Shown here piece by piece: positions 18,182-39,894 of a DNA stretch of 47,232 nucleotides. Source of the DNA: Anaerolineales bacterium (GTDB lineage: Bacteria; Chloroflexota; Anaerolineae; Anaerolineales; RBG-16-64-43); assembly GCA_016928575.1 (NCBI GenBank), contig JAFGKK010000091.1, forward strand, positions 1 to 47,232, read 5' to 3'. A model generated the notes under the pieces. It was given only the letters and a program-made list of their open reading frames with translations, was not told the origin of the DNA and did no database searches. The translations under genes and the position numbers were made by a program. Every line of letters begins with the position of its first letter. Positions within the stretch are counted from its first letter, which is position 1.

Positions 18182-18245
18182 GGGGGGGCTGAGCGGATAC
18201 GAAAAATTTTATTTTTTCGTATCTGCTCAGCCCCCCTTATCCGCC
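18172..18245. repeat. 34-bp-arm hairpin covering the stop codon of the upstream gene
   Basis: The arms 18172-18206 (GGGCGGATAAGG...) and 18212-18245 are complementary over about 34 pairs with one mismatch and one bulged G; the loop is T/A only. It reads as two copies of one repeat end (TTCGTATCTGCTCAG) meeting head to head. It could also terminate transcription, since the loop side is T-rich, but that is secondary. Confidence 0.85.
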
Positions 18246-18350
18246 CCTCGGGCGCCTTCTCCCAGCCCTACATCTGCGGATGAAGATATGCATTTGTTGA
18301 AAGCCCTCCAGCTTAAGGGATGGGCTGGGAGAAGGATGGGATGAGGGGGG
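18212..18350 (+). repeat. Composite modular repeat, copy 1
   Basis: Block order: TTCGTATCTGCTCAG, then TTATCCGCCC, CCTTCTCCCAGCCC (18255-18268), a 53-base middle, GGGCTGGGAGAAGG (18322-18335) and the tail GGATGGGATGAGGGG. The same blocks in the same order occur on the opposite strand at 39690-39894. A short copy with only the stem and tail is at 33162-33202. The rest of the spacer to 18480 shows no gene. Confidence 0.75.
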
Positions 18351-18480
18351 AATAATTGGATGATTTTTCGACTTTTTTCAATCCTTGCATCATGCTGAGC
18401 AAATGTATTTTTTCTTTTGTTCCTCTTGTGGCCAAAATGGCCGCATGGGGCACAAAAGGCGCATAGAAAAACGCATTCGT

Positions 18481-19485
18481 CTATTGGTAATACCTTCGAA
18501 GCACGCGGCAAACGGCCAGGCTGATCCAGCATCGGGCGCCGCGGACCTTGGCGGTCTCTTTCACACGCGCGTGCGGTTTGGCGTACGTCACCCGCCACAG
18601 TCCGTCCCTTTCCTGATGACGGACGAGCCAATCCAACGCCTTGGCGATCCGCGGATCGTCGGCGGGCAAGCCGATGCGCGAGACGGAATCCAGCGCCGCG
18701 ACGAGGTTGTTCCACCAGAAGGGATATTCAAAGCGGATCCAGTATTCCGCCGACTGGTAAGAGGTGTAGACGTCCGGCTGGAAGAAACGGTCCGCGAGCA
18801 GCGACGCGGCGGCTTTCGCCTCCCGCGTCCTACGATACTTCGGGTGGACGGCGAACGCGCGCAGAACCATGCCGGTCCAGTTGTGGGAGAAGGGTTTTGT
18901 GCGGTCGGGCTCGACGACGTCCATGTGGCTGCCGGTTAGGCGGTACATCTGCTTGCCGTTGAAGGGATGGGTGAGAATCGGGATCGTCCATCCGCCGTCG
19001 TCCTGCCGCATGGAGCGCAGCCAGCGGAAGCATTTTTCCGCGCGCGGATCGCTCCCGTATCCCGCTTGGACGAGCAGGGAAAGGACGGCGCCGGTGTAAT
19101 ACGTGGCGTATTGGTCCGCCAGGAATCCGCGGAAGTCGCCGTCCGCGGTCTGGCAGGAAAACAAAAATTCCGCCGCGCGCTCGGCCTGCGGATCCTCGCG
19201 GGTGAACCCATACATCTCCACCAGGATTCGGAAATATCTCCAGGTTTCGACCAGGCGGTAGTTGACGGCGGGATGCTTGACCCGCGCGGCGGGAACCGGA
19301 AAGGAGCCGTCCCTTTGCTGCTTGCGGAGGATCTTCGCCGCGTCCGGCAACCGCCACAATTCTTGGATGGGGCCGGCGTCCTCTCCCAGAAGGTCGCGCC
19401 GGACGAAAAACCGCAGGGCTTCGTTCCCGTGCGCGTGCAGCGGCGGGATCGGATCATGGGCGAGGGATTTCTGCCAGGGCTGCAT
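18481..19485 (-). CDS. Alpha/alpha-toroid (prenyltransferase/squalene-cyclase-like repeat) protein
   Basis: A 334-residue soluble protein built of helical-pair repeats, each carrying a QW-like turn: QQRDGSFP (about 56-63), CQTADGDFRG (about 112), MRQDDGGWTIP (about 159) and HQERDGLWRV (about 290). This is the alpha-6/alpha-6 toroid of terpene cyclases and protein prenyltransferases. The cyclase DXDD motif is not visible, so cyclase activity is doubtful and the enzyme class is open. It lacks a signal peptide. The family is often annotated only as a hypothetical protein with prenyltransferase repeats. Neighbours give no pathway. Confidence 0.75.
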   Translation of the reverse strand: MQPWQKSLAHDPIPPLHAHGNEALRFFVRRDLLGEDAGPIQELWRLPDAAKILRKQQRDGSFPVPAARVKHPAVNYRLVETWRYFRILVEMYGFTREDPQAERAAEFLFSCQTADGDFRGFLADQYATYYTGAVLSLLVQAGYGSDPRAEKCFRWLRSMRQDDGGWTIPILTHPFNGKQMYRLTGSHMDVVEPDRTKPFSHNWTGMVLRAFAVHPKYRRTREAKAAASLLADRFFQPDVYTSYQSAEYWIRFEYPFWWNNLVAALDSVSRIGLPADDPRIAKALDWLVRHQERDGLWRVTYAKPHARVKETAKVRGARCWISLAVCRVLRRYYQ

Positions 19486-19635
19486 TCGGAGGGAAACCTA
19501 TGGGTTCGGACAATGTAAAGAATATTGTATTCCGTTTGCTGACGGACGGCGGCAAAAAAACCGAGGTGCGGAGATGTGAAGCTGCAATGTTTTGCCTTGG
19601 GCCATCGCGTCTCAGCGCCTCCGCAATGCAGAGAT

Positions 19636-20166
19636 TCAATTCTTCGCGCGGGGGCGCGTAGGCGCAGAAGCGCGATGCGAATTGCCGTCCCGGATCTCCG
19701 GAGTCGTATCGTTTCGAATCATTTGGACGAATTCGAATTCGCCGCCGTTGGTTCGCTGAAGATGGGTCTTTTCCTTTAGAAAGCCCAGCTTTTCGTAAAG
19801 CCGGATCGCCCTTTGGTTGAAGGCCGCCACTTCCAGGTGGAAACGCTTCGGATGAAAGCGGCGGCGGGCGAATTCCAATCCCGCCTGCACGAAGGCGCGC
19901 CCCAGCCTTTGGCCGGTATCCTCCGGCCTCATCCCCAATCCCAGCTCCACGGCCCCGCCGCGGACGTCGAAGCAGAAGAAGCCGGTCAGCTGGCCGTTCC
20001 CGTTCAGGACGGCGAAATATCGGTTTTCCCAATTGCAGGGGTCCAGCAATTCCGCCAGATCCTCGGGACCCTGCGCGAAATCGTAAAATGCATAGACGCC
20101 GTCGTAATGCCAGCCGGCGACGGTTTGGGCGTATTTGGTGTTCATGGGCGCAAAATGATAGGCCAT
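19636..20166 (-). CDS. GNAT family N-acetyltransferase
   Basis: A 176-residue protein. The acetyl-CoA-binding motif A appears as LGLGMRPEDTGQRLGRAFVQAGLEFAR (about residues 75-101), and motif B as EVAAFNQRAIRLYEKLGF (about 112-129). It probably acetylates a small amine or a protein N-terminus; the substrate is unknown. GGAGGA lies upstream of ATG 20166, whereas the alternative ATG at 20145 has none. The last 20 residues are Arg/Pro/Ala-rich and probably disordered. It is divergent from the flavodoxin gene. Confidence 0.88.
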   Translation of the reverse strand: MAYHFAPMNTKYAQTVAGWHYDGVYAFYDFAQGPEDLAELLDPCNWENRYFAVLNGNGQLTGFFCFDVRGGAVELGLGMRPEDTGQRLGRAFVQAGLEFARRRFHPKRFHLEVAAFNQRAIRLYEKLGFLKEKTHLQRTNGGEFEFVQMIRNDTTPEIRDGNSHRASAPTRPRAKN

Positions 20167-20246
20167 CGGCGCGCCGGTCCTCCGGGGTGCAACGGATTAT
20201 AATCCGGTTGCGTATGCATCAATGTATATTTTCGGAGGATTCTTCC

Positions 20247-20729
20247 ATGAAAACCGTCGTGGTCTACGATACGGTGTTCGGCAACACGGAAAAAGTGGCG
20301 CAGTCGGTGGGCGCGGCCTGCACGCCGGCCGCCGCGGTCGTTCGGGCCGGCGAGGCCGGCAAGGACGCGCTGGCCGGCGCGCAACTGGTGATCGTCGGGT
20401 CCCCGACCCGGGCTTTCCGTCCCACGCCCGCCCTGAGGCAGTGGATAAAATCGCTCCCCAAGAACAGCCTGCACGGCGTCCGGGTCGCCGCGTTCGACAC
20501 CCGGATGGACCTTAAAGCGCTCGACAACAAGTTCCTGACGTTCATGGTGGGCCTCTTCGGATATGCCGCCAAGCCGATCGCCGACGCGCTGGCGAAGAAG
20601 GGCGGAACGCCGGTTCTTGCGCCGGAAGGGTTCATCGTCACCGCCAGCGAAGGGCCGCTGGCGGAAGGCGAACCGGAACGGGCGGCGCAGTGGGCGAAGC
20701 GCGTGCAATCCGCAGCGAAAGGCGTTTGA
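20247..20729 (+). CDS. Flavodoxin-like protein
   Basis: A 160-residue flavodoxin-fold protein. The FMN phosphate loop is VVYDTVFGNTEKVA (residues 4-17), with LVIVGSPTRAFRPTPALRQWI as the second FMN-contacting strand and loop, and AAFDTRM the third. It carries electrons or acts as an FMN-dependent reductase. GGAGG lies eight bases before the ATG. The frame to 20088 upstream is not protein-like. TATAAT at 20198-20203 may be its -10. Confidence 0.88.
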   Translation: MKTVVVYDTVFGNTEKVAQSVGAACTPAAAVVRAGEAGKDALAGAQLVIVGSPTRAFRPTPALRQWIKSLPKNSLHGVRVAAFDTRMDLKALDNKFLTFMVGLFGYAAKPIADALAKKGGTPVLAPEGFIVTASEGPLAEGEPERAAQWAKRVQSAAKGV

Positions 20730-20992
20730 CCGCCGATTCCAGACACCGTTTCTTCGTTGCGTATGGATTCGATGAGACGGGAGTGCGGACAGCAAAAGGC
20801 ATCTCATTACCTTGTGAATGGATTGTTGTTGAGTGTGTGTGAGGAATTCCGGGATCATCCTGCCGGGATCGATATGGAAATTGAAAATGGGATAGAGAGG
20901 AGGGTGATGACATATTTCTATTCACCGTATCGGCAAGGGATTGATTTTCATTCTTTTCGGGCAATGACACAATCTACACCAGGGAGGATGCC

Positions 20993-21574
20993 ATGGAATA
21001 TTATAAAATTTGCCCGTCTTGCGGAATAAAAAACAAGTGCAGTAATTCGTTCTGCGAATGCGGGGTCGACCTTGCTTCGGTGAAGACCATGGCCGCCGCT
21101 GCCGGCGACGAAAAGGCGGCCGGCGCATTTTCCGCGGACCGGCCGGGTTGCTTGACCGTATACGCCCTGCTGATCTACGGATCGGGAGTGGCCTTCAGCC
21201 TGCTGGGGGTTGCCGGAGGAATCGCGGCCCTAATCTACGAGCTGATCAATGGCCCAGCTTCCTATATCTCGATGACGGTTTTCATCATTGCGGGATCGGC
21301 GGGGTTCGCCGCCTTCTATTCTTTCTTGACCCGCGGATACTTGGAAATGCGCCCATGGGCGCGGTATTGGGCGATACTCGTTCACGGAATGAATGTGCCC
21401 GGCAGCCTGACTATGAGTTGCTCTGCGGTTGGATTTATCACCGCCGCAATCGATAGGGGCGATTCCGGCGCCGTCGCCATCGCCGTTCTCGCGGCCGCGA
21501 CGATGATCGGCGTGGTCGCCTTGAACGGATACACCCTGTATTGGTTCATTAAAAATGGTAAATATTTTTCATAA
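20993..21574 (+). CDS. Zinc-ribbon membrane protein
   Basis: A 193-residue protein. The N-terminus has Cys 7, 10, 16, 21 and 23 (CPSC ... FCECG), a zinc-ribbon-like knuckle of the kind found on many small bacterial membrane proteins. Four hydrophobic segments follow (about 55-82, 92-112, 120-145, 158-182). GGGAGG lies six bases before the ATG. The function is unknown. The plus-strand frame before it (20757-21029) overlaps this ribosome site and start in another phase and looks like chance. Confidence 0.72.
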   Translation: MEYYKICPSCGIKNKCSNSFCECGVDLASVKTMAAAAGDEKAAGAFSADRPGCLTVYALLIYGSGVAFSLLGVAGGIAALIYELINGPASYISMTVFIIAGSAGFAAFYSFLTRGYLEMRPWARYWAILVHGMNVPGSLTMSCSAVGFITAAIDRGDSGAVAIAVLAAATMIGVVALNGYTLYWFIKNGKYFS

Positions 21575-21593
21575 CCACAACTTTCCCATCTCC

Positions 21594-22681
21594 CTAAGTG
21601 CAATTTGAGGGGTGGGGAAAAGGCACCAAACGCCGTCTTTGGATCGTCATCCCGAGTTCTCCCTGCCTTCGCTTGGTATGACGATCCAATGACCGCAAGG
21701 CATCCTCGAGAAACACCGTCCTCCCGTTGGATGGCCCCGCTTTTACAGCACCCTGCTGAATGGTCCGTGCCTCCGCCGGATCCGGCGCGAGATAGCGGTC
21801 CAAGAATCCGATCACCCGCGCCTCGTATTCCCCGGGGCGGGCGAACAGCGCGTCGATGTGCCCGTCTTCCTCGCGGAACCAAGCTTCCTTCGGCTCGAGT
21901 GCGGCCTCGAAATATTGCCGGTTAAAAAGCTTGTCCCTTCCGGCGGCGATCAGCAACACGGGCGTGGGCGAAATCCGCGCCATCGCGTCCCGCATCGGTT
22001 CGGGATTCCAGATCCCGGTGGCGGCTTGCGCGAAGAAGTACGTCATCCACATCGACGGCGCCCAAAGCCTGTCCGTCGGATCGGTGCCCTGGAACCAATC
22101 CGCAAAGGTCGGGTAACCGCATCCTTCGGCGACCACCGCCGAGAGCCGGCCGGTGCCGGCCGCTGCATACAGCGCGATCCGCGCCCCGGCCGAAAGGCCG
22201 AGGACGCCGATCCGCTCCGGATCGACGTCGGGGCGGGTCTGCAGGTAATCGAGCGCGGCAAGACGTTGCGGTGCGCATCCCAGCCGAAGGCGTACAGGCC
22301 GCCTTCGCTTTCCCCCTGCGCCCGCGTATCATAGAGCAGGACTCCGTACCCGTGGCGGGCCAGGAGTTGGGCGTGGTAGAGGGTGCCGGTGCGGTTGCCG
22401 TTAAAGGCGTGAACGAGGATCACCGCCGCGCGGTTGGCGGAAGGGATATACCAGCCCCGGAGAGTCAGGCCGTCTTGCGTGGCGAAGGCCGCGTCCGCAT
22501 ACCCCATCCCGAGATCCGTCGGCGAGGCCGAGCCGAGGGGGAAGCGCTGCGGATGCAGAGCGGCGTACGCGTCGACCGCGGGGATGACAAACAGGTAGAC
22601 GAGGAAGAGCAGGAACAGCGTGAACAGGATCAGGTCGCGCCAGTACTATCGTCCGCGCTTCAGGAAAAAAATCCGAGGCAT
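21594..22681 (-). pseudogene. Membrane-anchored alpha/beta hydrolase, broken by a TAG codon and a frameshift
   Basis: Read from ATG 22681 (GGGAGA upstream), the gene codes MPRIFFLKRGR, then TAG at 22648-22646, then in the same frame YWRDLILFTLFLLFLVYLFV, a membrane anchor. The hydrolase core follows: HAFNGNRTG, and YDTRAQGESEGG. Near 22255-22268 one base is missing; in the next frame LDYLQTRPDVDPERIGVLGLSAG follows, with the nucleophile Ser. Later LIAAGRDKLFN (Asp) and EEDGHID (His) complete the triad. So every catalytic part is present but split over two frames plus a nonsense codon. The 3' end runs into the repeat at 21639-21689, so the stop may also be secondary. It is either a recent pseudogene or contains two assembly errors. 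Confidence 0.82.
21639..21689. repeat. Short GTCATCCCGAG-type inverted repeat
   Basis: TTGGATCGTCAT (21639-21650) and ATGACGATCCAA (21678-21689) are perfect 12-bp inverted repeats. The element lies at the 3' end of the broken hydrolase gene and is related to the 639-812 and 15332-15454 elements. Confidence 0.7.
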
Positions 22682-22802
22682 GCGTTTCTCCCGGAGGCTC
22701 CTCCCCCGATCATACACCAACCCTGGTTTTTCCGGGGGCGCCGTCTGAATCCTCCGCCTTCCGCCTTTGGCCGGGCGGGGGAGGAGCGCAGACCGGTGTG
22801 GC

Positions 22803-23417
22803 TCAGCTCAGCCGCACTCCCGGATCCCGTTCGTACCCCGAGCCCATCCGGCACAACTGGTCGAGCGCCGCGGCGAACAGGTCGAACAGGTCCTTCAGCC
22901 GCTGTTTGTCGGTGATCACGCCCACGGTCTGGAAATACAGCTCGTCCACCCCCTCCGGGAAGGATTGTTTGAACCAGCCCTCGTCGTCTTTGACCTCGAA
23001 GTGGATCGAAGGTTGTTTTTGGATCATCTGGCGGATCTCGAGGTTCGAGAGCAGGCGGTAGACAAGGTCTTCCGAGGAGGATTGGATGATGAACTCGTCG
23101 TCGAAATACGAATCGCCGATTTCGATGTCCTGGGTGCCGAGCAGTTTGGCGATCCCGCTGAAGATGTTCTTGCGGTAGATGTTGAAGCGGAACCCGTCCG
23201 GATTGACGAACGGGGCGCGGAAGCGGGTGTAGGTGACGCGGGTTTTTCCGGTGCTGACGGTGTAGGTGTCGAGCGTGATCCGCCAATCGCGGTGGGTTAG
23301 GGTGACTTTGCTGTCCTTGAAAAATCCGCCCGGGTTGTACTCGGCGCCGATTTCCCGGCTGAGTTGGGACCACATCTCGTCTTTGCTGGGGCCGAACAGA
23401 CCGCGCAGGATGCTCAT
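22803..23417 (-). CDS. Uncharacterised soluble protein
   Basis: A 204-residue protein with a well-formed mixed alpha/beta look: ILRGLFGPSKDEMW at the start, then strands such as SKVTLTHRDWRITLDTYTV, FRFNIYRKNIFSGIAKLLG, QDIEIGDSYFDDEFIIQSS and a C-terminal helix DLFDLFAAALDQL. I have no named family for it; the layout (a strand-rich middle with IEIGDxxFDDxFxI) resembles unnamed conserved bacterial proteins. AGGAG is about nine bases before the ATG. It lies between the broken hydrolase and the GH3 gene, with no evident functional link. Confidence 0.75.
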   Translation of the reverse strand: MSILRGLFGPSKDEMWSQLSREIGAEYNPGGFFKDSKVTLTHRDWRITLDTYTVSTGKTRVTYTRFRAPFVNPDGFRFNIYRKNIFSGIAKLLGTQDIEIGDSYFDDEFIIQSSSEDLVYRLLSNLEIRQMIQKQPSIHFEVKDDEGWFKQSFPEGVDELYFQTVGVITDKQRLKDLFDLFAAALDQLCRMGSGYERDPGVRLS

Positions 23418-23518
23418 AGATGGAACTCCTCTGCGTGAACGCGGCGGCCGCCGGATTTGCGGCCGGTATTACTCATCTACGGAAGGGGGTGCCGTGGGTT
23501 TGCGGAAGGGGAATCCAC

Positions 23519-25831
23519 CTACCCGCGGACGGTGAAGGCGCCTTCTAAACCGGCCGCGGGCCGCATCCCCTCCCGCCACTCGGGTTGCCCGCCGCCGACC
23601 CACACCCGGAATTTTCCGGGCTCGAGGATCCAATCGCCGTTTTCGTCCGCGAACCGCATCTGCTCGCGGCTGAGCGTGAACGTCACGGTTTGCTTTTCGC
23701 CGGGGGCCAGCCGGATCCGCGCAAACCCCTGCAACTGAAGCAGCGGCACGGTCTGCGAGGCTTCTTCGTCTTTGAGATAGACCTGGACCACTTCGTCCCC
23801 CTCGCGGCCGCCGGTATTCTCGACTTCGACCGCGACCTCTACGGATTCGCCCGGGGCGATCTCGGCCGGGCGGATGTCCAGGTTGCGGTACGCGAAGGTC
23901 GTGTAGCTCAATCCGTATCCGAACGGGTAAAGCGGCCGGCCGGTGAAGTAGCGGTAGGTGCGGTTCTTCATGCTGTAATCGTCGAGGCGGGGCAGATCCT
24001 TGGTGGAGCGGTAGAACGTGACCGGCAGGCGTCCGCCCGGATTCGTGAGGCCGAAGAGCGCCTCGGCCACCGCGGTGCCGCCGGCCTGGCCGGGGTACCA
24101 GGCTTCCAGGATGGCGGGGATGTTCTCGTCGGCCCAGGTGACGGCCAGCGCGCTGCCGTTCAACAGCACCAGGATCACGGGCGTCCCGGTTTCGAAAACC
24201 CGCTTGAGAAGTTTTTCCTGGATCGACGGGAGGTTCAGGGTCTTGCGGTCGCCCTGGCTGATCTGCCCCTGAGGCAGACCCTCGGCCTGTTCGGCTTCGC
24301 CTTCCATCAGCTGGGAGAGTCCGAGCACCACCACCGCCGCTTGGCAATCCTTTGCCGCCCGGACCGCAACGTCGATTCCGGAATCCGTTCCGTCGTTGAT
24401 ATTGCAGCCGAGCGCGTAGCGGACGTCCACCCCTTGGGGGGCCAGGGCGCGGATGCCCGCAAGGACCGACACCGGCTCCGCGGGGGTGCCCTGATAGTTG
24501 CCGCTGAGGACCCGGGTGTCGTCGGCGTTCGGGCCGATGACGGCGATGGAGGAGACGGTGTCCATGTCCAGCGGCAGCGCGGCGTCCTCGTTCTTCAGGA
24601 GAACGAGCGACTGCCGGGCGATTTCGAGCGCCGCCTCGCGGTGCTCGGCGGAATCCACGACGCTGTAGGGGATCTGCGCGTAGGGCACCTGCTCCGGCGG
24701 ATCGAACATCCCCAGGCGAAAGCGCGCGGTGAAGAGCCGCCGGACCGCCCGGCGCAGGTCCTCGACGGTGATGGTGTTGCGCTGGACCGCCAGATTAAAG
24801 TAGTTGAAGAAGCATGGAATGCCAAGGACGCATCCGCACTCCAGGTCCACTCCGCTTCTGACGGCCAGGGCGGCGGCTTCCTCCCGCGAAACGGCCGCGC
24901 CGTGGGAGTAAAACAGGAAAGCCACCGCGCCGCAGTCGGCGACGACGAATCCGTCGAAGCCCCACTCCTCGCGCAGGATCTCCTGCAGCAGGGTCGGGTT
25001 GGCGCTGCAGGGCTCCCCGTTCAGGCTGTTGTAGGAGCTCATCACCGAGGCCGCCTTGCCCTCCGTGACGCAGGCCTGGAAGGCGGGGAGGTACGTCATC
25101 CGCAGGTCCTGTTGCGAGACCTTGGCGTCGAATCCGAAGCGGCCTTCCTCCGGCCCGCTGTGGGCGGCGAAGTGCTTGGGGGTGGCGACGGTCTTGAGGT
25201 ATTTCGGATCGTCGCCCTGCATCCCCCGGATAAAATTCACCGCCAGGCGCGAGGTCAGGTAGGGGTCCTCGCCGTAGGTTTCCTGGCCGCGACCCCAACG
25301 CGGATCGCGGAAGATGTTGATGTTGGGGCAGTAGAAATTCAAGCCGCCGTACTGGATGTACTGTCCGTTGCGGACGAATTCGTGGTGCTTGGCGCGGCCC
25401 TCGTCGGAGATGATCTCGGCCGTGCGGCGGATCAGGCCGGCGTTCCAGGTGGCGGCCATGCCGATCACCTGCGGAAACACGGTGGCAAGCCCGGCGCGGC
25501 CGATGCCATGCCCGGCTTCGCTCCACCAGTTGTATTTGGCGACGCCCAGCCGGTCGATCGGCGGGGCTCCGGTGCCCATTTGCATCATCAGTTCGTTGAC
25601 GGTCATGCGGTCGACCAGGTCGGCCACCCGCTCGGCGATCGGGCGCGACGGATCCGGATAGATCGGAACCGCGGGCGAAGCGCTGGGAGTGATGTCGAGC
25701 GGCGGGCGGGTCGGAAGCGGGGTGGCCGGCTCCCGGCCGCCGCAGCGCGTCAGCGCCAAACCGCCCGCGGTGGCGAGCGCAGTTTTGAGGAATTCCCTGC
25801 GAGAGGGCGTTTTCGCTCCTTTTTTCTTCAT
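23519..25831 (-). CDS. Glycoside hydrolase family 3 beta-glycosidase, exported lipoprotein
   Basis: A 770-residue enzyme. The twin-arginine start SRREFLK (Arg 11-12) and a Cys at 30 (LTRC) suggest Tat export and lipidation. The GH3 TIM-barrel carries ATPKHFAAHSG (Lys-His 219-220) and the nucleophile Asp 299 in FVVADCGA. The alpha/beta sandwich follows (IAVIGPNADDTR, VVVLGLSQLMEGE), and a C-terminal fibronectin-III-like domain (about 650-765, SYTTFAYRNL ... GDEVVQVYLKD). Such enzymes release terminal beta-glucose or beta-xylose; the sugar cannot be settled here. AAGGA lies six bases before ATG 25831. A UGT-type glycosyltransferase gene lies upstream on the same strand. Confidence 0.93.
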   Translation of the reverse strand: MKKKGAKTPSRREFLKTALATAGGLALTRCGGREPATPLPTRPPLDITPSASPAVPIYPDPSRPIAERVADLVDRMTVNELMMQMGTGAPPIDRLGVAKYNWWSEAGHGIGRAGLATVFPQVIGMAATWNAGLIRRTAEIISDEGRAKHHEFVRNGQYIQYGGLNFYCPNINIFRDPRWGRGQETYGEDPYLTSRLAVNFIRGMQGDDPKYLKTVATPKHFAAHSGPEEGRFGFDAKVSQQDLRMTYLPAFQACVTEGKAASVMSSYNSLNGEPCSANPTLLQEILREEWGFDGFVVADCGAVAFLFYSHGAAVSREEAAALAVRSGVDLECGCVLGIPCFFNYFNLAVQRNTITVEDLRRAVRRLFTARFRLGMFDPPEQVPYAQIPYSVVDSAEHREAALEIARQSLVLLKNEDAALPLDMDTVSSIAVIGPNADDTRVLSGNYQGTPAEPVSVLAGIRALAPQGVDVRYALGCNINDGTDSGIDVAVRAAKDCQAAVVVLGLSQLMEGEAEQAEGLPQGQISQGDRKTLNLPSIQEKLLKRVFETGTPVILVLLNGSALAVTWADENIPAILEAWYPGQAGGTAVAEALFGLTNPGGRLPVTFYRSTKDLPRLDDYSMKNRTYRYFTGRPLYPFGYGLSYTTFAYRNLDIRPAEIAPGESVEVAVEVENTGGREGDEVVQVYLKDEEASQTVPLLQLQGFARIRLAPGEKQTVTFTLSREQMRFADENGDWILEPGKFRVWVGGGQPEWREGMRPAAGLEGAFTVRG

Positions 25832-25948
25832 CGGGGTTCCTTCCTTAGGGAAATGGTCTTTTCCAACTTGCGGCGGACGGTCCGCTGTAAATAATCCGGT
25901 CCGGCGCACCCGCCCGGGAGGACGTGTGTGGCGATGATAATCCCACCT

Positions 25949-29589: not shown

Positions 29590-29652
29590 ACTCCCCCCTC
29601 GCCTTTCCGTTGTACGGGAAGGAGAGGGAGGGTAGTGAGGGTAGGGATGGGA
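29590..29652. repeat. Hairpin-plus-tail repeat (degenerate copy)
   Basis: CCTTTCCGT (29602-29610) and ACGGGAAGG (29614-29622) form an imperfect stem, followed by a G-rich run and the shared tail GGGATGGGATGG. It lies just downstream of the Ala/Thr-rich membrane protein gene. Confidence 0.6.
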
Positions 29653-29692
29653 TGGCCGATCGGGAGCGCGGCTTTCTCGAACGGCTTTCTTT

Positions 29693-30910: not shown

Positions 30911-31065
30911 GGCCATCTCCTCCCCCGCCTTCCCGTATCACGGGAAGGCGGGGGAGGGTAGGGAGGGGAAGGATGGGATGGCTACCCGGCGGCCTCCCGC
31001 AGGAAGGGCATATGGCCGATAGAGTGATCAGGCGGGGGAGGGCAGGGAGGGGAAGGATGGGATAA
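30911..31065. repeat. Two hairpin-plus-tail repeats in tandem
   Basis: The first copy has a perfect 17-bp stem, CTCCCCCGCCTTCCCGT (30920-30936) with its complement at 30940-30956, then a tail GGGTAGGGAGGGGAAGG and ATGGGATGG. The second copy (31032-31065) has only the 3' half of the stem and the same tail with one or two changes. They fill the spacer between the two paralogous membrane genes (30674-31075), which otherwise holds nothing visible. Confidence 0.8.
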
Positions 31066-31075
31066 CGGCCGCCGA

Positions 31076-31294: not shown

Positions 31295-31411
31295 GGTGAA
31301 GAGGGCGAAGAAATGAACGCAAGCGCGCGCGGAAATTTTTTACCGTGTGCGGGAATTTGTGAAGCGAAGCCGTGATTCGGATTGCTGAGCGTTCGCCCCC
31401 CCCCCGTCGTT

Positions 31412-32995
31412 TTATTCGTCCCCTCGGCGCAGCAACAGCGCCGGGATCAATCCCGCGGCGGCGACCGAGAGCGCGATCCAGGCCATCTCGGCCGTCACCC
31501 GCGTCACCGTCTGCAGGCCCGCTTCGAGGGTCCGCGCCAGGTCGGTGAGCGGCACGCCCTCCAGCAGCGCGGCGCTGATCTCCGCCGTGCGCCGCAGGCC
31601 GTAGGTCGTCAGCAGGCTGACGCTCAGGCTCATCCCGATCAGCCGCAGGATGATCACCGCCGCGGCGGCGATCCCGCGCTGGGATTCGTCCGCGCCGTTG
31701 ATCACCGCCGTCCCGACCGGCGCGATTGTCAGACCGAGTCCGATTCCCGCCAGCGCGAGCCCGGCCGCCATGTGCAGGGTCCCGGCGAGAGTGGCCGCAT
31801 CCGGCATGGCGCCGGAGGTGAACAGCGCGACCGCCTGGGCGGCCATCTCCGGCCGCCAGGTCGTCATCAGCCCGAAGCCGAGCGCGGCGGCCGACATCCC
31901 GGTCAGCGTGGTGAGCCGGTAGCCGATCCGCGCGGTCAGCAGGCCGCCGGGAATCGCGGCCAGCGCCAGCGGGATGGTGAACGCCGAAAGCAGGTAGCCG
32001 CTGACCAGCGCGCCCTGACCGGCACCGCCGGCGCCGGCCAGGTTGATGAACAGCGGCACGCTGACCAGCCCGGCCATCAGGCAGAATCCCACCAGCAGGT
32101 TGAGCGCGCCGGAGGCGGAGACGTTGCGGTTGCGGAACAACCGCAGGTCCAGCAGCGGCCGCGGCGCGCGCAGTTCGTGCCATATGAAAACGGCGAAGGC
32201 CAGCAGGCCGAGCGCGAGCGGAACGGGCGAGATGCCCGCCTCGGCCGCCGCGCCGGCGCTTGCGTCCCCCGCGGCCAGGCCAAGGTTCAATCCGGCGAGG
32301 GTGAGCGTGATCCAAAGCACGCCGATCCAGTCCATCGGGACGCGCTCCCGGACCGCGGGCAACCCCTTGAAGGCCCAGACGGTCAATCCGAAGAGGACCG
32401 CGATCAGCGGCAGGTTGATCCAGAACAGCACCGGCCAGGCGAAAAACTGCACCATCACCCCGCCGTAGAGGTGGCCCAGCACCCAGCCGGCGGTGTCGAC
32501 CGCGCCGATCACCCCGAGCGGCAGGGCGCGGCGCTGCGGAGGGAAGAGGTCGGCCGCCAGCGCCATGCTCACCGGCACCATCGCGCCGGCGCCGAAGGCC
32601 TGCACCACGCGGCCAAAGATCAACGCGTAGAGAGCCATCAGGCTGCGGTCGGGGCGCCCGCCGGCGAGCGCGCGCGCAATCCGGTATGCCAACTCCGCCG
32701 GCGCGCCAGGCGACGCGGCAACCAGCCACGAGCCGAGGAAGAAGACGATCAGGCACAACAGGTAGACGCGCCGCCGGCCCAACAGATCCGAAACGCGCCC
32801 CATGAAGGTCATGCTGACGGCGTAGGCCAGCAGGTACCCGGTCACCGCCCAGGCGGCGTCGTCGAGGCCGGTCTGCAGCGGCACCTCGAGGTCGGCCACC
32901 ACCGCCGGCAGGACGGCCGAGATGATCGTCAGGTCGAGCGCGCCAAGGAACACCGGCAGGCACACGGCGGCGAGGATCCATGCGGGTCGTTTCAT
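31412..32995 (-). CDS. MFS transporter, DHA2 (14-helix) type
   Basis: A 527-residue drug-efflux-type pump. The first helix has LGALDLTIISAVLP (motif D1, Asp 21), then WAVTGYLLAYAV and motif A GRVSDLLGRRR (66-76). About fourteen hydrophobic segments can be counted. Length and motifs place it in the DHA2 family (EmrB/P55/QacA). AAAGGA lies about ten bases upstream of the ATG. The next gene upstream on the strand is an LppX/LprG-like lipoprotein; that pairing is the lprG-P55 arrangement known from mycobacteria, where lipoprotein and pump together export triacylglycerol-type lipids. The spacer of 212 bases holds a repeat, so coupling is not tight. Confidence 0.9.
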   Translation of the reverse strand: MKRPAWILAAVCLPVFLGALDLTIISAVLPAVVADLEVPLQTGLDDAAWAVTGYLLAYAVSMTFMGRVSDLLGRRRVYLLCLIVFFLGSWLVAASPGAPAELAYRIARALAGGRPDRSLMALYALIFGRVVQAFGAGAMVPVSMALAADLFPPQRRALPLGVIGAVDTAGWVLGHLYGGVMVQFFAWPVLFWINLPLIAVLFGLTVWAFKGLPAVRERVPMDWIGVLWITLTLAGLNLGLAAGDASAGAAAEAGISPVPLALGLLAFAVFIWHELRAPRPLLDLRLFRNRNVSASGALNLLVGFCLMAGLVSVPLFINLAGAGGAGQGALVSGYLLSAFTIPLALAAIPGGLLTARIGYRLTTLTGMSAAALGFGLMTTWRPEMAAQAVALFTSGAMPDAATLAGTLHMAAGLALAGIGLGLTIAPVGTAVINGADESQRGIAAAAVIILRLIGMSLSVSLLTTYGLRRTAEISAALLEGVPLTDLARTLEAGLQTVTRVTAEMAWIALSVAAAGLIPALLLRRGDE

Positions 32996-33156
32996 AATCG
33001 AAGAATCCTTTTACCGCAAAGACACAAAGATCGCTGAGAAAAGCGTGGAAGATTCAATTTCCATAAAGCCCGCCCCGGCCGATCAATGGGTGGGCCGGGG
33101 AGCGCGTGGCCTTTTCCCTCAACCGACCTCGCCTCGCCGCATTATGGGACGGATTC

Positions 33157-33202
33157 AGCCGCCTTCTCCCAGCGTAAGCTGGGAGAAGGACGGGATGAGG
33201 GG
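33157..33202. repeat. Short copy of the composite repeat
   Basis: CCTTCTCCCAGC (33162-33173), GTAA loop, GCTGGGAGAAGG (33178-33189), then the tail ACGGGATGAGGGG. It equals the stem and tail of the composite repeat at 18212-18350 with the middle deleted. It lies six bases beyond the LppX-like stop and could also end that transcript, though no T tract follows. Confidence 0.78.
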
Positions 33203-33207
33203 CGGAC

Positions 33208-33945
33208 TTACGGCAGTTGCACTTCGATCTCCGCGTCGATGTCGTAGAAATCGATCCGCCAGCCGTTCCCGCCGGGCTCGGCGACGTGGACGCGGGCCGG
33301 GACGAAGGCCGCGGCGTCCACCCACACGTCCACCGGATACAGCGTTCCGCTTTGCAGGGTGCCGGCCGTCAGCGCGGCGAGGGCCGCGCCGTCGGCCTCG
33401 CCGCGGATGTGAATCGCCGCGACTCCCTCGATGTCCTCGGTGCCGACGCGCTGTGGGTTTTGGATCCCGGTCCGCAGCACCGCGGGCATGCCGTCGGCCT
33501 GGAAGATTGACGCCCCGTCAAAGCCCAAACCGTCGGAGGCGGGGACAAGCTGGCGGGTCAGCGGATTCGAAAGGTAGGTTCCTTCCGGCAGCCAGTAGAC
33601 CTCGATCTGCAGGACGTTGCCGAACAGCATCACTTTGACGTCCGCCCGCACGCGGTCCGGGGCTTGGTAATCCCCGGCCGCTTCGCTGAAGGTCATGCCG
33701 GTAGCCGGATCGAGTGTGACCGGCTCGCCCTCGCGGATCAGCAGGAAGCGGGCGCTGTCCATCGCCAGCATCGCGTCGCCGGCTTGGGCAAGGATCTCGG
33801 CCGGGGAGGGCGTGGGGGTGAGGGTGACGGTCGGTGTCTTGGTTCGGGTGGGCTGCGAACCCGACCCGGCGGAGGAAGAATCCCGGGCCGTGCAGGCCGC
33901 CGCGAAAACCGCCAGGAGAAACAAGACTGCGAGGGCTTTTCTCAT
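33208..33945 (-). CDS. LppX/LprAFG-family lipoprotein
   Basis: A 245-residue lipoprotein. Signal peptide with lipobox VFAAAC (Cys 18), a Ser/Thr/Pro linker to about residue 48, then an LppX-like fold: a helix AEILAQAGDAMLAMDSARF, strands FLLIREGEPVTLD and SEAAGDYQAPDRVRADVKV, EVYWLPEGTYLSNPLTRQLV, and the closing half with VDVWVDAAAFVPARVHV. In mycobacteria such proteins carry lipids across the periplasm to or from an MFS pump. AAGGAGA is eight bases before the ATG. The DHA2 pump gene is next on the strand. Confidence 0.85.
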   Translation of the reverse strand: MRKALAVLFLLAVFAAACTARDSSSAGSGSQPTRTKTPTVTLTPTPSPAEILAQAGDAMLAMDSARFLLIREGEPVTLDPATGMTFSEAAGDYQAPDRVRADVKVMLFGNVLQIEVYWLPEGTYLSNPLTRQLVPASDGLGFDGASIFQADGMPAVLRTGIQNPQRVGTEDIEGVAAIHIRGEADGAALAALTAGTLQSGTLYPVDVWVDAAAFVPARVHVAEPGGNGWRIDFYDIDAEIEVQLP

Positions 33946-34058
33946 TCCGCATTCTCCTTCCCGCCCGGGGGCGGACGCGGGAGGATTGTATCAGCGATCG
34001 GCCGATCGGATTCCGCCGCCGCGCCGCGGGCCAGGCGCCCCGCTTTCCGCCGACCGGA

Positions 34059-34568
34059 TCAATCGCCGCGGGCCGGAGGAAGATTCGGCGGATTGCTCCA
34101 ATCGACCGGACCGTGTTCGAACCGGTACCGGAGGCGCGGGAGGACGATCCGCTTCCAAGCCCGCTGGAAATGTTCATACGCGGCGTCCCATCCGTCGCCT
34201 TCGCCCCAGCCGTCATGGCGCAGGGTCACGCGGGTTTCGGAAGCCCCCAGCTTTTCCAGCCGGACGGTCACGTGCGTCCGCTGCGTGCGGATCTCCGGCA
34301 ATTCGGGAGGCGCGTTCCAGGTGAAGGACAGCATCGCCGGCGGTTGCACGGCGAGCAGGACGGCCCCTTCGGAGCCCCGTTTCCCGGGGGCGGCCTCCGG
34401 GTCGAAAATCATCTCGTATTTCCCCCCGGAACGAAGGTCGATTTCGCAGCGCGGGGCGAAAAACGATTCCGCGCCCGCTTTCGTCGTCCAGGCGCGCCAA
34501 ACCTCCTCGATGGAAGCGGGCACGGTCGCTTCGCCTTCCACGGTGCGGTCACGCCGTCCGATCGGCAT
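34059..34568 (-). CDS. SRPBCC (AHSA1-type) domain protein
   Basis: A 169-residue START/Bet-v1-like protein: EATVPASIEEVWRAWTTKAG (residues 12-31), SFFAPRCEIDLRSGGKYEMIF, PPAMLSFTWNAPPE, TRVTLRHDGWGEGDGWDAAYEHFQRAW. This matches the AHSA1-like group that binds hydrophobic ligands in a cavity or assists other proteins; the ligand is unknown. AAGGAG is eight bases before ATG 34568. The frame upstream is not protein-like. Confidence 0.88.
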   Translation of the reverse strand: MPIGRRDRTVEGEATVPASIEEVWRAWTTKAGAESFFAPRCEIDLRSGGKYEMIFDPEAAPGKRGSEGAVLLAVQPPAMLSFTWNAPPELPEIRTQRTHVTVRLEKLGASETRVTLRHDGWGEGDGWDAAYEHFQRAWKRIVLPRLRYRFEHGPVDWSNPPNLPPARGD

Positions 34569-34642
34569 CCGTCGCTCCTTTCCTTGCGGGCGATACCTCC
34601 ATGGCCGGGGCTGGTGTCGCTCCGGACGCGGCGAGCCCCCGC

Positions 34643-35401
34643 TCACAGCCTGCATCCTTTGAAAACCCGGCTCCAATCGCCGGAGAATTCCTCATTGATC
34701 ACCAGGCAGATATCGACCCCGTACGGCTTCTTGAGGTAAAGCCAAATATTGGAAAACGCGGAATCCGACAGGGCTTCCGGAAAGAGTCGGCGGAAATCGC
34801 CGAAGGGGGCATTCAAGCAGAGGTCGATTTGAAGGAGCGGGATGGAGGCGACGTCGAAGGAAACCAGCTCGAACTTCGGCCGGCGGAGGATGGAATAATC
34901 GATCGGCGCGCATCCGGCCGTCTCCTCCGGATTCCCCGGAAGGATGAAATCCCATGGTGCGCCGCTGGGGTATCGGTGATACAGGCATTCCCCGCGAAGG
35001 GCCTCCCGCAACTCCCGGATCCCGGGATGCAAATCCGGTCCGAACCAGGGCAGGTTGAAGCCGATGTGGTCGGCTTGAAGGATTTTCCATCCGCGCTCGG
35101 ATAATCTTTGGGAAACCCCTTCCACGGAAATGTGTCGGTAGGGCCGGGGATTCTTTTTCTCGGCGCCGGTGATGTTTTCGATCGGAACGGACCGGCGGAC
35201 ACCCGAAAGCGAAAAAACGGCCCGAACGGTTTCGGCGGGCGCGGTGAATTCGATGGAAAGGAGCGGGAAGAAAGAAGTATCGGAGGCCGGTAGGTCGAGT
35301 CGGCGCTCAGCGGACTTCCCGAGCGGAGCAAGAAAATTCAACAGGCGCCCGTGGAAATCCGGGTGCCTTTCGGGCAGCTGCAGGCAGATTCGTTCCAGCA
35401 T
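34643..35401 (-). CDS. Uncharacterised protein, coupled to an alpha/beta hydrolase gene
   Basis: A 252-residue soluble protein without signal peptide. Striking stretches are DHIGFNLPWFGPDLHPGI, CLYHRYPSGAPWDFILPG and KFELVSFDVASIPLLQIDLC. The His/Trp/Pro-rich middle suggests a metal- or ligand-binding site (inference). I do not recognise the family. It starts ten bases after the hydrolase gene stop and is probably translated with it. Confidence 0.7.
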   Translation of the reverse strand: MLERICLQLPERHPDFHGRLLNFLAPLGKSAERRLDLPASDTSFFPLLSIEFTAPAETVRAVFSLSGVRRSVPIENITGAEKKNPRPYRHISVEGVSQRLSERGWKILQADHIGFNLPWFGPDLHPGIRELREALRGECLYHRYPSGAPWDFILPGNPEETAGCAPIDYSILRRPKFELVSFDVASIPLLQIDLCLNAPFGDFRRLFPEALSDSAFSNIWLYLKKPYGVDICLVINEEFSGDWSRVFKGCRL

Positions 35402-35411
35402 GCGGGGCGTC

Positions 35412-36059
35412 TCATTCTATGAACCCTTGCATCGCCTCGACGATCTTGCTTAATGCTTCCATCGTCCCCGGGATGTCTCCGGTGATTTCCAATCCGTGAT
35501 GCACCTTCTCCAGCACCAGGGTGTCTCCCTGGGTGGCGTTGACCAGATCCTCCAGCACAGCCGGCTGGTAGAAATCGTCCGCGGTGCCGATGATGAACAG
35601 CGACCGCGGGCGGTACTTGCGGATCTGTGCGCACAGCCACTCGCTGGACAGGACCGGCGTGGACCAAACGCAAGCGGCCGCCGCGAAGGCCGGATCCTCC
35701 AACAAATGTCCCAGCGCAAGAGTCCCCAGGGATTTCCCGATCACCGTCAGCTTTTGATATTTGCGTCGCCGCATCCCCGCGGCGCATGCGGCGCGCGCGT
35801 CGGCGGCGAGCCATTTGGCCTGCTCCTCCTGCGGCCGCTGCCGGAAATCGGTTTTCGGGTAGGCGTACTCCACCCGCAGTACGTCCGCGCCGCGCTGCTG
35901 CAGGATCAGGCCGGCGTAATGCAGGTCCGGCATGTCGACCGTGTGCCGGTATCCGGGGAGGATGATCCCTAGATGATCCGTCTCCCCGGGGTGGACGATC
36001 ATCGAGGCCGGCACAGGCCGGCGGTCGTATCCGAGGACGTCCAAGGAAACGATTTCCAT
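35412..36059 (-). CDS. Alpha/beta hydrolase
   Basis: A 215-residue small hydrolase: LGIILPGYRHT (oxyanion region), the nucleophile elbow GKSLGT (Ser 110), an acidic pair in IGTADDFYQP (Asp 161/162) and VHHGLE (His 188). Together these make a Ser-Asp-His triad. It resembles dienelactone-hydrolase/BAAT-type esterases; substrate unknown. GGAG lies eight bases before the ATG. It is followed after ten bases by the uncharacterised gene. Confidence 0.85.
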   Translation of the reverse strand: MEIVSLDVLGYDRRPVPASMIVHPGETDHLGIILPGYRHTVDMPDLHYAGLILQQRGADVLRVEYAYPKTDFRQRPQEEQAKWLAADARAACAAGMRRRKYQKLTVIGKSLGTLALGHLLEDPAFAAAACVWSTPVLSSEWLCAQIRKYRPRSLFIIGTADDFYQPAVLEDLVNATQGDTLVLEKVHHGLEITGDIPGTMEALSKIVEAMQGFIE

Positions 36060-36126
36060 GCGGTTTCTCCGTGCGCCGAAATGACAGCCGCGATCGACGG
36101 CCGCGCGGGAACGGGGCGCGGCCGGA

Positions 36127-36768
36127 TCAGGCGTCCAGGAAGATCCACCCGATCATACAGCCGGTGAGGAAAAGGTGAAACGCCGCGGCCGGCAGGATTT
36201 GCTTGGCCGTTTTCCAGGGATTTCGCGGCGGGAGGGCGTGCGTCTCTGGAAGCTTCCGCTTCACGAGGCAACGGAACTCCGACCAATCCGCTTCGGACGC
36301 GAAATGGGATTTTGGGAAAAGCACCGTCTGGCCGGATTCGTGGACCAGAAGAATCAAATCCCCGCTTTCCCCGAAGCCTCCGTATCCGGACCACTCCGAA
36401 CGAACCGTTTCCCCCTCGACGGCGGTCTCGATAAAATCTTCGGAGGCCGTTCCCCGACGGTGTTTTTTCACCCTGGGATTCTGATTCCACGCTTCGTGGG
36501 CGCGGTTCAGCCATTGAACGCCTTGGCGGGTGAGGATCAATCCGGGCAGGAGCGCGATGGCCGCCACGGCGAGGTAGATCCAATCGCCAAGGATTTTGTA
36601 TCCGGCGAGGGAGGCCAGGAAAAGCGCCAGGTAGTCGATTCCGAATCCGAGCCACAAAAAGGCGGGGCTGGGCGCCCCGGGCCGGCTTCCGGTTTTCGGC
36701 GATTCGATGAACTTGGCGGCGGCGAAGAACTCTTCCTGCGAAAACGAACCGGCGAACGCAATCTGCAC
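36127..36768 (-). CDS. YcxB-like membrane protein
   Basis: A protein of about 213 residues from GTG 36768, giving the usual YcxB-type start VQIAFAGSFSQEEFFAAAKF. Two close hydrophobic segments follow (about 40-85), then a QWLNRAHEAWNQNP linker, and a beta-rich cytoplasmic part ETAVEGETVRSEWSGYGGFGE and DLILLVHESGQTVLFPKSHF, which is the YcxB hallmark. A third hydrophobic segment ends the protein. AAAGG lies seven bases before the GTG. A longer frame to 36828 adds Arg-rich residues and is less likely. Confidence 0.72.
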   Translation of the reverse strand: MQIAFAGSFSQEEFFAAAKFIESPKTGSRPGAPSPAFLWLGFGIDYLALFLASLAGYKILGDWIYLAVAAIALLPGLILTRQGVQWLNRAHEAWNQNPRVKKHRRGTASEDFIETAVEGETVRSEWSGYGGFGESGDLILLVHESGQTVLFPKSHFASEADWSEFRCLVKRKLPETHALPPRNPWKTAKQILPAAAFHLFLTGCMIGWIFLDA

Positions 36769-37194
36769 GGCGGTGCCTTTCCCGGCGCTTCCATTCCGGC
36801 GGCCGAATCGATGGCGGAAGCCCCGCAAGGGTTTCGGCGGTTTTTAATATTGTATCCGCGATTCCGAAACGCATGGCCGCCGCAAGCGGGTGCGCAACGG
36901 GGAGGCGGGCGGTGGTTTTCTCGCAGGGCTATGGGAAATCTTTCCCGATCATTACGGCGCGGCCCCGGGATGGCAGGCACCCGGGCGCATGACCACGGAT
37001 GCGGTGAACGGAAAGAGGCTTTGCGCCACGGCCGAAAGCGCGTCATCCGCCCGGCCGGCGCACGCCGAATCCACCGGATCAATCCGGATGTGGAGGATTG
37101 CCGGGGTCGGCTACGGTTGGCAGGCTCATCCGGGTTGGGCGTTTGACCGGCGGGGAGCGGTGCACAGGGGTTGATTCTGATCAATGAAGACGTA
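36769..37194. other. Gene-free stretch with one weak protein-like fragment
   Basis: No gene is supported here. A plus-strand frame (36890-37174) contains WEIFPDHYGAAPGWQAPGR, which recalls the N-terminus of galactokinase-type kinases, but the GEHTDY that should follow is absent and there is no ribosome site. I treat it as chance or a relic. Confidence 0.45.
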
Positions 37195-39396
37195 TCAGGC
37201 GTTCGGCTGGAATGGTTCCGGCGCCGGCAGCGGCGGGGCTTCCACCACCGGCAGGTCCGCCGCCGAGCCCTCGACGGCCAGCACTTCGTCCGAAAGCCAG
37301 CAGTGCGCAGCGCCGGCGGGAACCAGGATCCACCACCACCTTGGCATCCGATCGTTCCGCCCTTCCAGGTTAACCACCGAGCCCTCCTGCAGAACGGTGA
37401 AGATGTCGTACGCCGTTCCCGGTCCGATGCGGCAGTTGGCGGTCACGATCAATGTTCCGGTTGCGGTTCCGCTGGACGGAGTGGCCGACGCCAGCGGATC
37501 GTATTCGTAGGCGCCGACGTCGCATCCGTCGCCCGCCGGCCGGGCGACGCCGCGCTGATCTTCGGCCGGGCAGGCTCCTACGGCCGCATCCATCGCCGGG
37601 CTTCCCGCCATCAGCGGATGCACGAACGTTCCGCCGATCTCCGTCAGCGGACCCAGCCGGAGGCTTGTGCTGTCAAGGTCGGGCCGGCAGGCAAGGTCGA
37701 ATCCGAGGTGGTTAAATTCCCCCGTCGGATGGGTGTAGCAATCCCCCAGGACGGACCGGTTGGAAACGACGATGTTATTGGCGGAGGTCATCCGCGCGCC
37801 TCCGCCGGCGTAGATCCCCGCTTGGCCTTCATTGAACACCACGGTGGAGAAGGACAGGGAAACCGCCGTGGACGCGGCGGTAATCCCGTTGGCCGCGTTG
37901 CTGCTGACGGTGAGGTTGGTCGCTTCCAGGCTTCCCTCCTGGAGGTTGATTCCGTCGTTTCGGTTTCGGGCGATCGCCACCCGTTCGAAAATCGTCTCCG
38001 GCAGGAGGGAATCGGCCGGGTCGCCGTACTGCCAGAATCCGAAATCGCCGTTGTCCAAGATCTGCGCGTCCATCAGCCGCAGGCTCCCCTCCCGGAGGAG
38101 TACGCCGTAGGAGGTGTTGCCGTTAACTGCGACCCGTTGGGCGGTGGCCGTGCCGCTGTCGATTGTCATGCCGGCCCGATTGCCTGTCACCCGGCTGTTA
38201 TTCATCGTCAGCCGCCCGCCTTCCAGGTAAACGCCGTCGCCGGCGTTGGATTCGAAGACGGCCCCGTTGACGGCGGCGTTTCCGCTGCCGCGGACGACCA
38301 ATCCGTTGCGGTTGCCCGTGACCTCCACATCCCGCAGGGCAAGCCCCCCGGCGGAGACCTCGATTCCCGGATTGGGGTGATTCCGCACCGACGAATCCTC
38401 GGCCTCCACATCGCCGCCGGCGACCGTCAATCCGCGCGCGTTGCGCTCGATCCGGACCGCGTTCAACGACGCCGATCCGCTACGGATTGCGACGCCCGTC
38501 TCATGGTTGGCGTCGAAGACTGTCCCGTTGATTTCCGCGTTCCCTGCTTCAAGCAGGAAACCGTCCCACTGATTGCCCCCGACGGACCCTGCGGACAGAA
38601 CCAGGGATCCTGCGCTCTGCTCAACCCCGGTTCCGGCGTTGTCGCGGAGAACCACATCCGTAAGGGCGGCGTCTCCCCGGTTAAGAAAACCGTAGGTCCC
38701 GAACGTGCCGCCGGTATTGTTGCGGATATCCACTCCGCGGATGTCCGCCGTGCCGGAGTTGAAGATGCCGGTGTCATTTCCGGTCACGGATCCGCCGTTG
38801 AAATACAGCGTTCCCAGATTGTAGACGGCGGTTCCCCGGTTTCCACGGATGGAAACTCCCGCCAGCAGTGCCGTTCCGCCGGAATTTATCATAAGCCCGT
38901 GGGCGGTCGACCGCTCCAAGGGCGCGGACAGACCTTCGATCTGAAGGTTAAATAATTCGGCCCGGATGTTCTCGGCGACTATGACGTTCGGCGCTGTGGG
39001 TGAGGGGGAGGCCGGTTTCACAATCCTGGCGGTGGAAGAGGGTTGGCCGGCCAGAATGAGGTCCTTGGGGATGGTAAAGGAACCGTCGTATGCCCCCGGG
39101 GAGATGCGGATCTCGCTCCGCCATTCCGCCTTTTCGATCGCGCCCGGGATCGTCCGGCATGCCGCAGCCGCAGTCAGGCAGTCGTTATCGTCGTTGCCCG
39201 ACAAGGCGACGTACAATGTCGGACCGGAAGGCAACTCGGTGCCTTCCAGCGGAGGAAGGGGATCCAGGCCGCCGCGATCAATGACCGGAACCGAACCCGA
39301 TTCAAGGATTTCGCGGATCGTATCCAGCGGGGCGCAGGCAAGGATCAAACCAAGCGCCAGGATGAAAACACTGCGGGGGATGCTGTGTTTTTTCAT
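37195..39396 (-). CDS. Secreted parallel beta-helix lipoprotein with C-terminal SH3-like domain
   Basis: A 733-residue surface protein. Signal peptide with lipobox LILAC (Cys 21). Residues about 60-110 have the DUF1565-type start (TLYVALSGNDDNDCLTAAAACRTI). From about 130 to 590 there are about 20 coils of a right-handed beta-helix, each with a Gly-Asn step (SVTGNDTGIFNSG, ESNAGDGVYLEGG and similar). Then comes a choice-of-anchor-like block (DQRGVARPAGDGCDVGAYEYDP) and an SH3b-type domain (about 635-700, TANCRIGPGTAYDIFTVLQEG). Such proteins usually bind or cut polysaccharide; no catalytic residues are evident. AGAGG is seven bases before the ATG. Confidence 0.88.
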   Translation of the reverse strand: MKKHSIPRSVFILALGLILACAPLDTIREILESGSVPVIDRGGLDPLPPLEGTELPSGPTLYVALSGNDDNDCLTAAAACRTIPGAIEKAEWRSEIRISPGAYDGSFTIPKDLILAGQPSSTARIVKPASPSPTAPNVIVAENIRAELFNLQIEGLSAPLERSTAHGLMINSGGTALLAGVSIRGNRGTAVYNLGTLYFNGGSVTGNDTGIFNSGTADIRGVDIRNNTGGTFGTYGFLNRGDAALTDVVLRDNAGTGVEQSAGSLVLSAGSVGGNQWDGFLLEAGNAEINGTVFDANHETGVAIRSGSASLNAVRIERNARGLTVAGGDVEAEDSSVRNHPNPGIEVSAGGLALRDVEVTGNRNGLVVRGSGNAAVNGAVFESNAGDGVYLEGGRLTMNNSRVTGNRAGMTIDSGTATAQRVAVNGNTSYGVLLREGSLRLMDAQILDNGDFGFWQYGDPADSLLPETIFERVAIARNRNDGINLQEGSLEATNLTVSSNAANGITAASTAVSLSFSTVVFNEGQAGIYAGGGARMTSANNIVVSNRSVLGDCYTHPTGEFNHLGFDLACRPDLDSTSLRLGPLTEIGGTFVHPLMAGSPAMDAAVGACPAEDQRGVARPAGDGCDVGAYEYDPLASATPSSGTATGTLIVTANCRIGPGTAYDIFTVLQEGSVVNLEGRNDRMPRWWWILVPAGAAHCWLSDEVLAVEGSAADLPVVEAPPLPAPEPFQPNA

Positions 39397-39689
39397 CGAG
39401 AACCTCTAAATTCCGGTTCCACCATACCGACCATATAGAATCCATTACCGGCTTTTAGTGGAACAGCGGCCATCCTTTAGCAAGGAAGGTTCGGCTTTGA
39501 TGAGCGCTTCTGTCGTGGCTTATTGGCAGAACAGAGAGGCTCACCTATCCATCATGTATATTGGATAATATATACCCATAATGTCTAATAAATAATAAGA
39601 CTTGTATTAAAGCCTCAGAATGGCTGTTTGTATTTGCTCAGCCTGATGTAAGGATTGGAAAAATCGCCGAAAAACACGCCCCATTTTTC
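39397..39689. other. AT-rich upstream region of the beta-helix gene
   Basis: The stretch 39540-39610 is more than 70% A+T with several TATA-like steps (ATGTATATTGGATAATATAT), against roughly 64% G+C for the window. No gene is seen. It probably holds promoter signals, but I could not fix a -35/-10 pair. Confidence 0.4.
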
Positions 39690-39894
39690 TCCCCTCATCC
39701 CATCCTCCCGTCACTGTCCCGCGCTCCGCGCGGGACAGTGACGGGAGGCATTCTCCCAGCCCATCTCTCGAGATTGATGGCTTTGAATAATTACATTTTT
39801 TTTCCGCTGTTGTGGGGCTGGGAAGCCGTTCCCGGCGCAATTCCGGGCAAGGTGTCCGAAGGGCGGATGAGGGGTAATCTGAGCAGATACGAAG
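39690..39894 (-). repeat. Composite modular repeat, copy 2
   Basis: On the minus strand the block order is TTCGTATCTGCTCAG, CATCCGCCC, a CCCGG-type hairpin, TTCCCAGCCC, a middle of about 50 bases, GGGCTGGGAGAA, a 21-bp perfect hairpin (arms 39704-39724 and 39728-39748, loop TCC) and the tail GGATGGGATGAGGGG. Both ends and the order match copy 1 at 18212-18350, but this copy carries two extra stem modules. A minus-strand frame (39711-39995) falls in it and is not a gene. Confidence 0.75.

Follow-up and report, generated by a model that had tools for sequence, protein, structure and literature searches.

Decayed insertion sequences of fixed form are what bacterial MITEs are commonly taken to be, and the transposition of the ISBst12 branch of the IS66 family has, to our knowledge, been little studied. 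Variable internal modules are described for BOX of Streptococcus pneumoniae, a dispersed MITE built as boxA-boxBn-boxC (PMC3049150), and the Correia or NEMIS elements of Neisseria form two size classes, of about 107 and 155 bp, which have identical ends and differ by a 50-bp internal block (PMC2229807). Insertion inside other palindromes is known for REP sequences, with their CGTC and GTAG palindromes (PMC3733652), and IS1272 has been reported to replace stem-loops (PMC5678879). As for ISDge4, a member of the ISBst12 group of IS66, its ends read GTGACTACTCAGCA and GTAACTGCTCAGCA, with a repeat of 8 bp (PMC12898284).

The window analysed here is a stretch of 47,232 nucleotides of an Anaerolineales genome (assembly GCA_016928575.1, contig JAFGKK010000091.1), in which an earlier note had described two long copies of a composite repeat at 18212-18350 and 39690-39894. 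The blocks shared by both copies are present in the sequence and were confirmed by direct reading, and the two additional hairpins of copy 2 are real, corresponding to the modules S2 and S3 of Table 1, while the opposite orientation of the copies within the window has no special meaning. The border formerly placed at the GGATGGGATGAGGGG tail is wrong, a second terminal inverted repeat being present about 55 bp beyond it (CTGAGCAAATGT in copy 1 and CTGAGCAAATAC in copy 2); because this 3' inverted end, GCTGAGCAAAT, had been overlooked, the former coordinates are replaced by those of Table 1.

Table 1. Positions in the window of the MITEs and of their parts.
Feature	Positions	Strand	Remarks
Third MITE, family A-like	8859-9021	+	ends GTCTCCACTCAGCC...GGCTGAGTAGAGAC
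Head fragment of another copy, adjoining copy 1	18175-18200	-	about 26 nt, opposite orientation
Left target-site duplication of copy 1	18211-18218		ATTTTTTC
Copy 1, full MITE, M1 middle, without hairpin modules	18219-18406	+	188 bp; terminal inverted repeats and exact target-site duplication
Right target-site duplication of copy 1	18407-18414		ATTTTTTC, exact repeat of the left one
Copy 2, full MITE, M2 middle, modules S2 and S3	39630-39890	-	261 bp
Copy 2, right terminal inverted repeat	39630-39641	-	CTGAGCAAATAC
Copy 2, hairpin module S3	39707-39751	-	
Copy 2, middle segment	39760-39816	-	type M2
Copy 2, hairpin module S2	39824-39848	-	GCCCGGAATTGCGCCGGGAACGGCT
Copy 2, left terminal inverted repeat	39879-39890	-	GTATCTGCTCAG

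Copy 1, which was aligned with 18 other copies, carries the terminal inverted repeats GTATCTGCTCAG on its left and CTGAGCAAATGT on its right. Local alignment of copy 1 with copy 2 reached a score of 122.5, against a maximum of 26 among 500 dinucleotide shuffles, and covers the elements over their whole length, interrupted by just two large gaps, namely the extra hairpins of copy 2. A perfect palindrome of copy 2, CCTCCCGTCACTGTCCCGCGC / GCGCGGGACAGTGACGGGAGG, at 39704-39748 overlaps S3, and no recognisable target-site duplication was seen in the flanks of this copy, CGATCTTC / AAACAGCC. The head fragment beside copy 1 forms a long, almost perfect hairpin, and the stop codon of the ORF at 17501-18181 overlaps with this fragment.

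The search was extended to the draft genome of 3.84 Mb in 137 contigs, where counts of copies are lower bounds since many contigs end inside copies. Roughly 45 related places were recognised; BLAST with copy 2 gave 62 hits (E <= 0.001), part of which are due to the self-complementary hairpin, and exact GTATCTGCTCAG occurs 34 times, its reversed control not at all. Further copies elsewhere in the genome, whose lack the earlier note had named as the finding that would speak against it, are thus numerous. Many of the 34 exact ends belong to a second family, A, of about 164 bp, which shares these ends and differs in its interior; the family of the window, B, comprises elements of 157-307 bp. Family B had no match in the one congener searched, which has its own MITEs with an identical left end. 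In this congener (G001) the genes flanking copy 1 are present, the intervening stretch differs and no clean empty site was found. A chance origin was considered for two exact 14-base matches in order-level relatives and abandoned for one of them, L065 (1501-1617 in G023), a MITE of 117 bp that has this left end too and an exact 8-bp duplication, CTTTTGGA; such MITEs therefore occur outside the genus as well.

Other repeats were also encountered. At 29591-29656, 30917-30982 and 47107-47172 the window holds a different repeat family, ending in GGATGGGATGGC and having its own internal hairpin, and at 1490-1517 and 33162-33189 solitary CCCTCTCCCAGC / GCTGGGAGAGGG hairpins lie without MITE ends. 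Two MITE copies near contig ends (L049 and L149) are interrupted by the identical sequence TGCAAATTCCGGTCAATTCGGCCACCGATTCCGGTGTAATCCGG, which looks like the end of another insertion sequence, perhaps an IS21-like one.

Copies of the family end in GTATCTGCTCAG...CTGAGCARATAC and lie between 8-bp target duplications. Flanking octamers match at 6 or more of 8 positions in 12 of the 19 family B copies having both ends, and exactly in 4, compared with a mean of 0.9 and a maximum of 6 such matches in shuffled pairings, the choice of family B borders partly by flank fit introducing a mild bias toward duplications. A+T makes up 79% of the duplicated targets, the window as a whole being 64% G+C. Several further exact 8-bp duplications were found in family A, and the flanks of the third MITE of the window, TCCCGATC / TCCCGTTC, make a 7/8 duplication.

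The genome contains a single PF03050 gene, its only IS66 transposase gene, called IS66 transposase by both Pfam and NCBIfam, and a matching end, GTAACTGCTCACCCC, lies upstream of it (L061:892). In an order-level relative, a 1450-bp IS66 element (L085) has the ends GTAACTGCTCACGC...GCGTGAGCAGTTAC, a 7/8 duplication and an ORF related to the IS66 transposase of the genome studied. The length of the duplications together with the GTATCTGCTCAG ends fits IS66, and the end upstream of the gene, with the ends and duplication of L085, leads us to regard the elements as MITEs whose ends are those of the ISBst12 group of IS66: their terminal inverted repeats resemble the ones of an autonomous IS66 element, and the 8-bp duplication is present as well. 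The earlier reading is supported as regards the modules; it overlooked the nature of the elements, MITEs whose ends are of the IS66/ISBst12 type and which lie between target duplications of 8 bp. They are probably moved in trans by an IS66 transposase of the ISBst12 group. The IS66 gene of this genome, on contig 106, is cut by the contig end and its 5' end differs from the MITE end by 2 letters (GTAACTGCTCAC), so that the active partner may be another, unassembled element; once complete, the IS66 element at contig 106 would be expected to have a right end resembling GTGAGCAGTTAC.

Alignment of the family B copies revealed a constant frame with three insertion sites, S1 in the loop of CCGCCC/TTCGGGC, S2 between CACCTT and CTCCCAGCC, and S3 between GGGAGA and AGGATGGG. 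Among 33 parsed copies, the states at S1S2S3 were 111 (n=9), 011 (n=7), 000 (n=5), 001 (n=4), 110 (n=4), 101 (n=2) and 100 (n=2), which is 7 of the 8 possible presence/absence combinations, and every pair of sites shows all four pairwise combinations. On a frame tree with weak support (3 starred among its 30 inner branches), which makes homoplasy easier to find, the module states are without phylogenetic signal, the changes needed compared with shuffled labels being 12 and 11.2 for S1, 12 and 10.4 for S2, and 9 and 9.4 for S3. The segment formerly described as a degenerate middle consists of two alternative middles, M1 and M2, which follow the tree with 3 changes compared with 10.8 after shuffling, an agreement partly built in as the middle belongs to the tree's own columns. 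The best single case of a module difference is the sister pair L009/L012, in separate places with separate target duplications, which differ by 6 substitutions in 241 bp and by one exact 25-bp S1 hairpin. The S2 sequence has 28 matches genome-wide with up to 3 mismatches; solitary modules were looked for, and the inspected S2- and S3-like matches outside known copies sit in family remnants, except for L153 and L155, one-mismatch matches without hairpin context, and L154, in a family A-like copy. The earlier proposal of a defined frame that gains or loses hairpin modules is therefore supported by the three fixed sites, their combinations and the tree-independent states, gain and loss being inseparable on the tree and exchange between copies being a process that could contribute.

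The S1 module was resolved into two arms, the left one built of L units of 10 nt (TTCCCTCGCT) and the right one of R units of 13 nt (GGGACAGGCGCTC), and its length equals 10L + 13R + 2 within 2 nt in 19 of the 19 copies counted. Equal numbers of units in the two arms (L = R) were seen in 11 of the 19 modules, compared with 5.5 expected (permutation P ~0.002), with units counted by eye and L011 and L139, which have a different S1 unit, excluded; an automatic counter, which over-counted left units, gave a rank correlation of 0.80 and a weaker equality of L and R. Up to 5 left and 4 right units occur. Nested insertion of a single 26-nt unit replacing a 3-nt loop would yield the main length series of 25, 48, 71 and 93, while lengths of 34, 38, 57 and 84 look as if one arm had slipped. 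S3 lengths also step through 25, 48 and 71.

Related units occur in family A (L037 and L154), in MITEs of the congener (L064 and L069) and, in a sister genus, within other hairpins (L169, L172, L178 and L184), and four clear cases of the S1 unit in hairpin loops were found in G003. As a general behaviour, loop insertion of the S1 unit found no support, there being no overall excess of complementary flanks among 23 places (mean 3.3, compared with 2.8 and a maximum of 3.6 after shuffling). That the imperfect palindrome of about 23-26 nt, TTCCCTCGCTNNGCTCGGGACAGGCG, moves on its own and enters the loops of hairpins, its own among them, seems unlikely to us; if it did, MITE hairpins would grow from the tip by whole nested units.

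Taken together, we consider it very probable that both copies of the window are non-autonomous MITEs that gain and lose whole hairpins at three sites and are probably moved by an IS66 transposase. The frame consists of the outer inverted repeats and two stems, CCCCTCATCC/GGATGAGGGG and CTCCCAGCCC/GGGCTGGGAG; an IS66 transposase of the single-ORF ISBst12 group would recognise the GTAWCTGCTCAS ends and move this frame in trans, duplicating 8 bp of an AT-rich target. Short palindromic units of about 23-25 bp, of the TCCCG...CGGGA type, would be added or removed whole at the three fixed sites and, at S1, would nest inside one another so that both arms lengthen together. Modules may arrive by insertion, leave by hairpin deletion or be swapped by recombination between copies, and probably by a mixture of these.

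The mix of modules could also come from recombination, by gene conversion, among a few ancestral module-rich and module-free elements without any change in place. The four combinations at each pair of sites are in line with such exchange, as are the remnant L147, where an S1 left arm is joined to an S3 right arm, and copy 2 itself, which joins an M2 middle, the type of 4 of the 5 module-free copies, with S2 and S3. However, the sequences to either side of the 25-bp difference between L009 and L012 are almost the same, and the graded S1 lengths go beyond what exchange alone creates; as a full account, recombination is thus conceivable, yet on balance we doubt it. Still less probable in our estimation is an ancestor with all modules whose hairpins were repeatedly deleted, for instance by slippage across cruciforms. 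Precise loss of hairpins by slippage is established, and the module-free copies are scattered over the tree, but the lengthening of S1 by whole nested units needs gain, and so do the like units seen in family A, in the MITEs that the congener has of its own and, in related genomes, within unrelated hairpins.

Single-strand folding of both copies is far better than that of shuffles (z -4.3 and -7.3) and copy 1 directly follows an ORF, as might be expected of a non-mobile intergenic RNA or regulatory element, such as a terminator or mRNA-stability element, kept at many loci. Terminal inverted repeats and 8-bp duplications refute this as the sole explanation, the congener is without a match and a search of Rfam matched no family, so that we give it hardly any credence, a regulatory side effect of the elements being possible. 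Under the preferred reading of MITEs with turnover of whole hairpins, a single genome with dozens of copies offers a natural data set on the gain and loss of palindromes, and the graded S1 series makes loop-directed insertion testable against slippage.

In the open-licence papers searched, no three independent sites, no two-arm arithmetic like that of S1 and no modular MITEs with ISBst12-type ends were found, and a modular MITE is now linked to the ISBst12 branch of IS66. Among known repeats, BOX and the long and short Correia elements come closest. Compared by architecture alone, the elements resemble BOX in their fixed ends, inverted repeats like those of insertion sequences, target duplications and variable internal units. 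BOX, on the other hand, varies mainly in one tandem boxB array, whereas three sites vary independently here, S1 lengthens by nesting in both arms and the ends are IS66/ISBst12-like, not those of ISSpn2. Correia elements have one internal block, compared with three sites in seven combinations and different ends here. Short palindromic units within palindromic repeats are shared with REP sequences, the units here occupying fixed sites of a MITE; judged by the ends and the 8-bp duplications, a DDE transposase is indicated here rather than the RAYT (IS200/IS605-type) of REP/BIME. The likeness to the ISBst12 group (ISDge4; PMC12898284) lies in the terminal repeats, GTAACTGCTCAGC compared with GTATCTGCTCAGC, and in the 8-bp duplications, but the members of that group are autonomous and carry a transposase gene, whereas the elements of the window type are MITEs.
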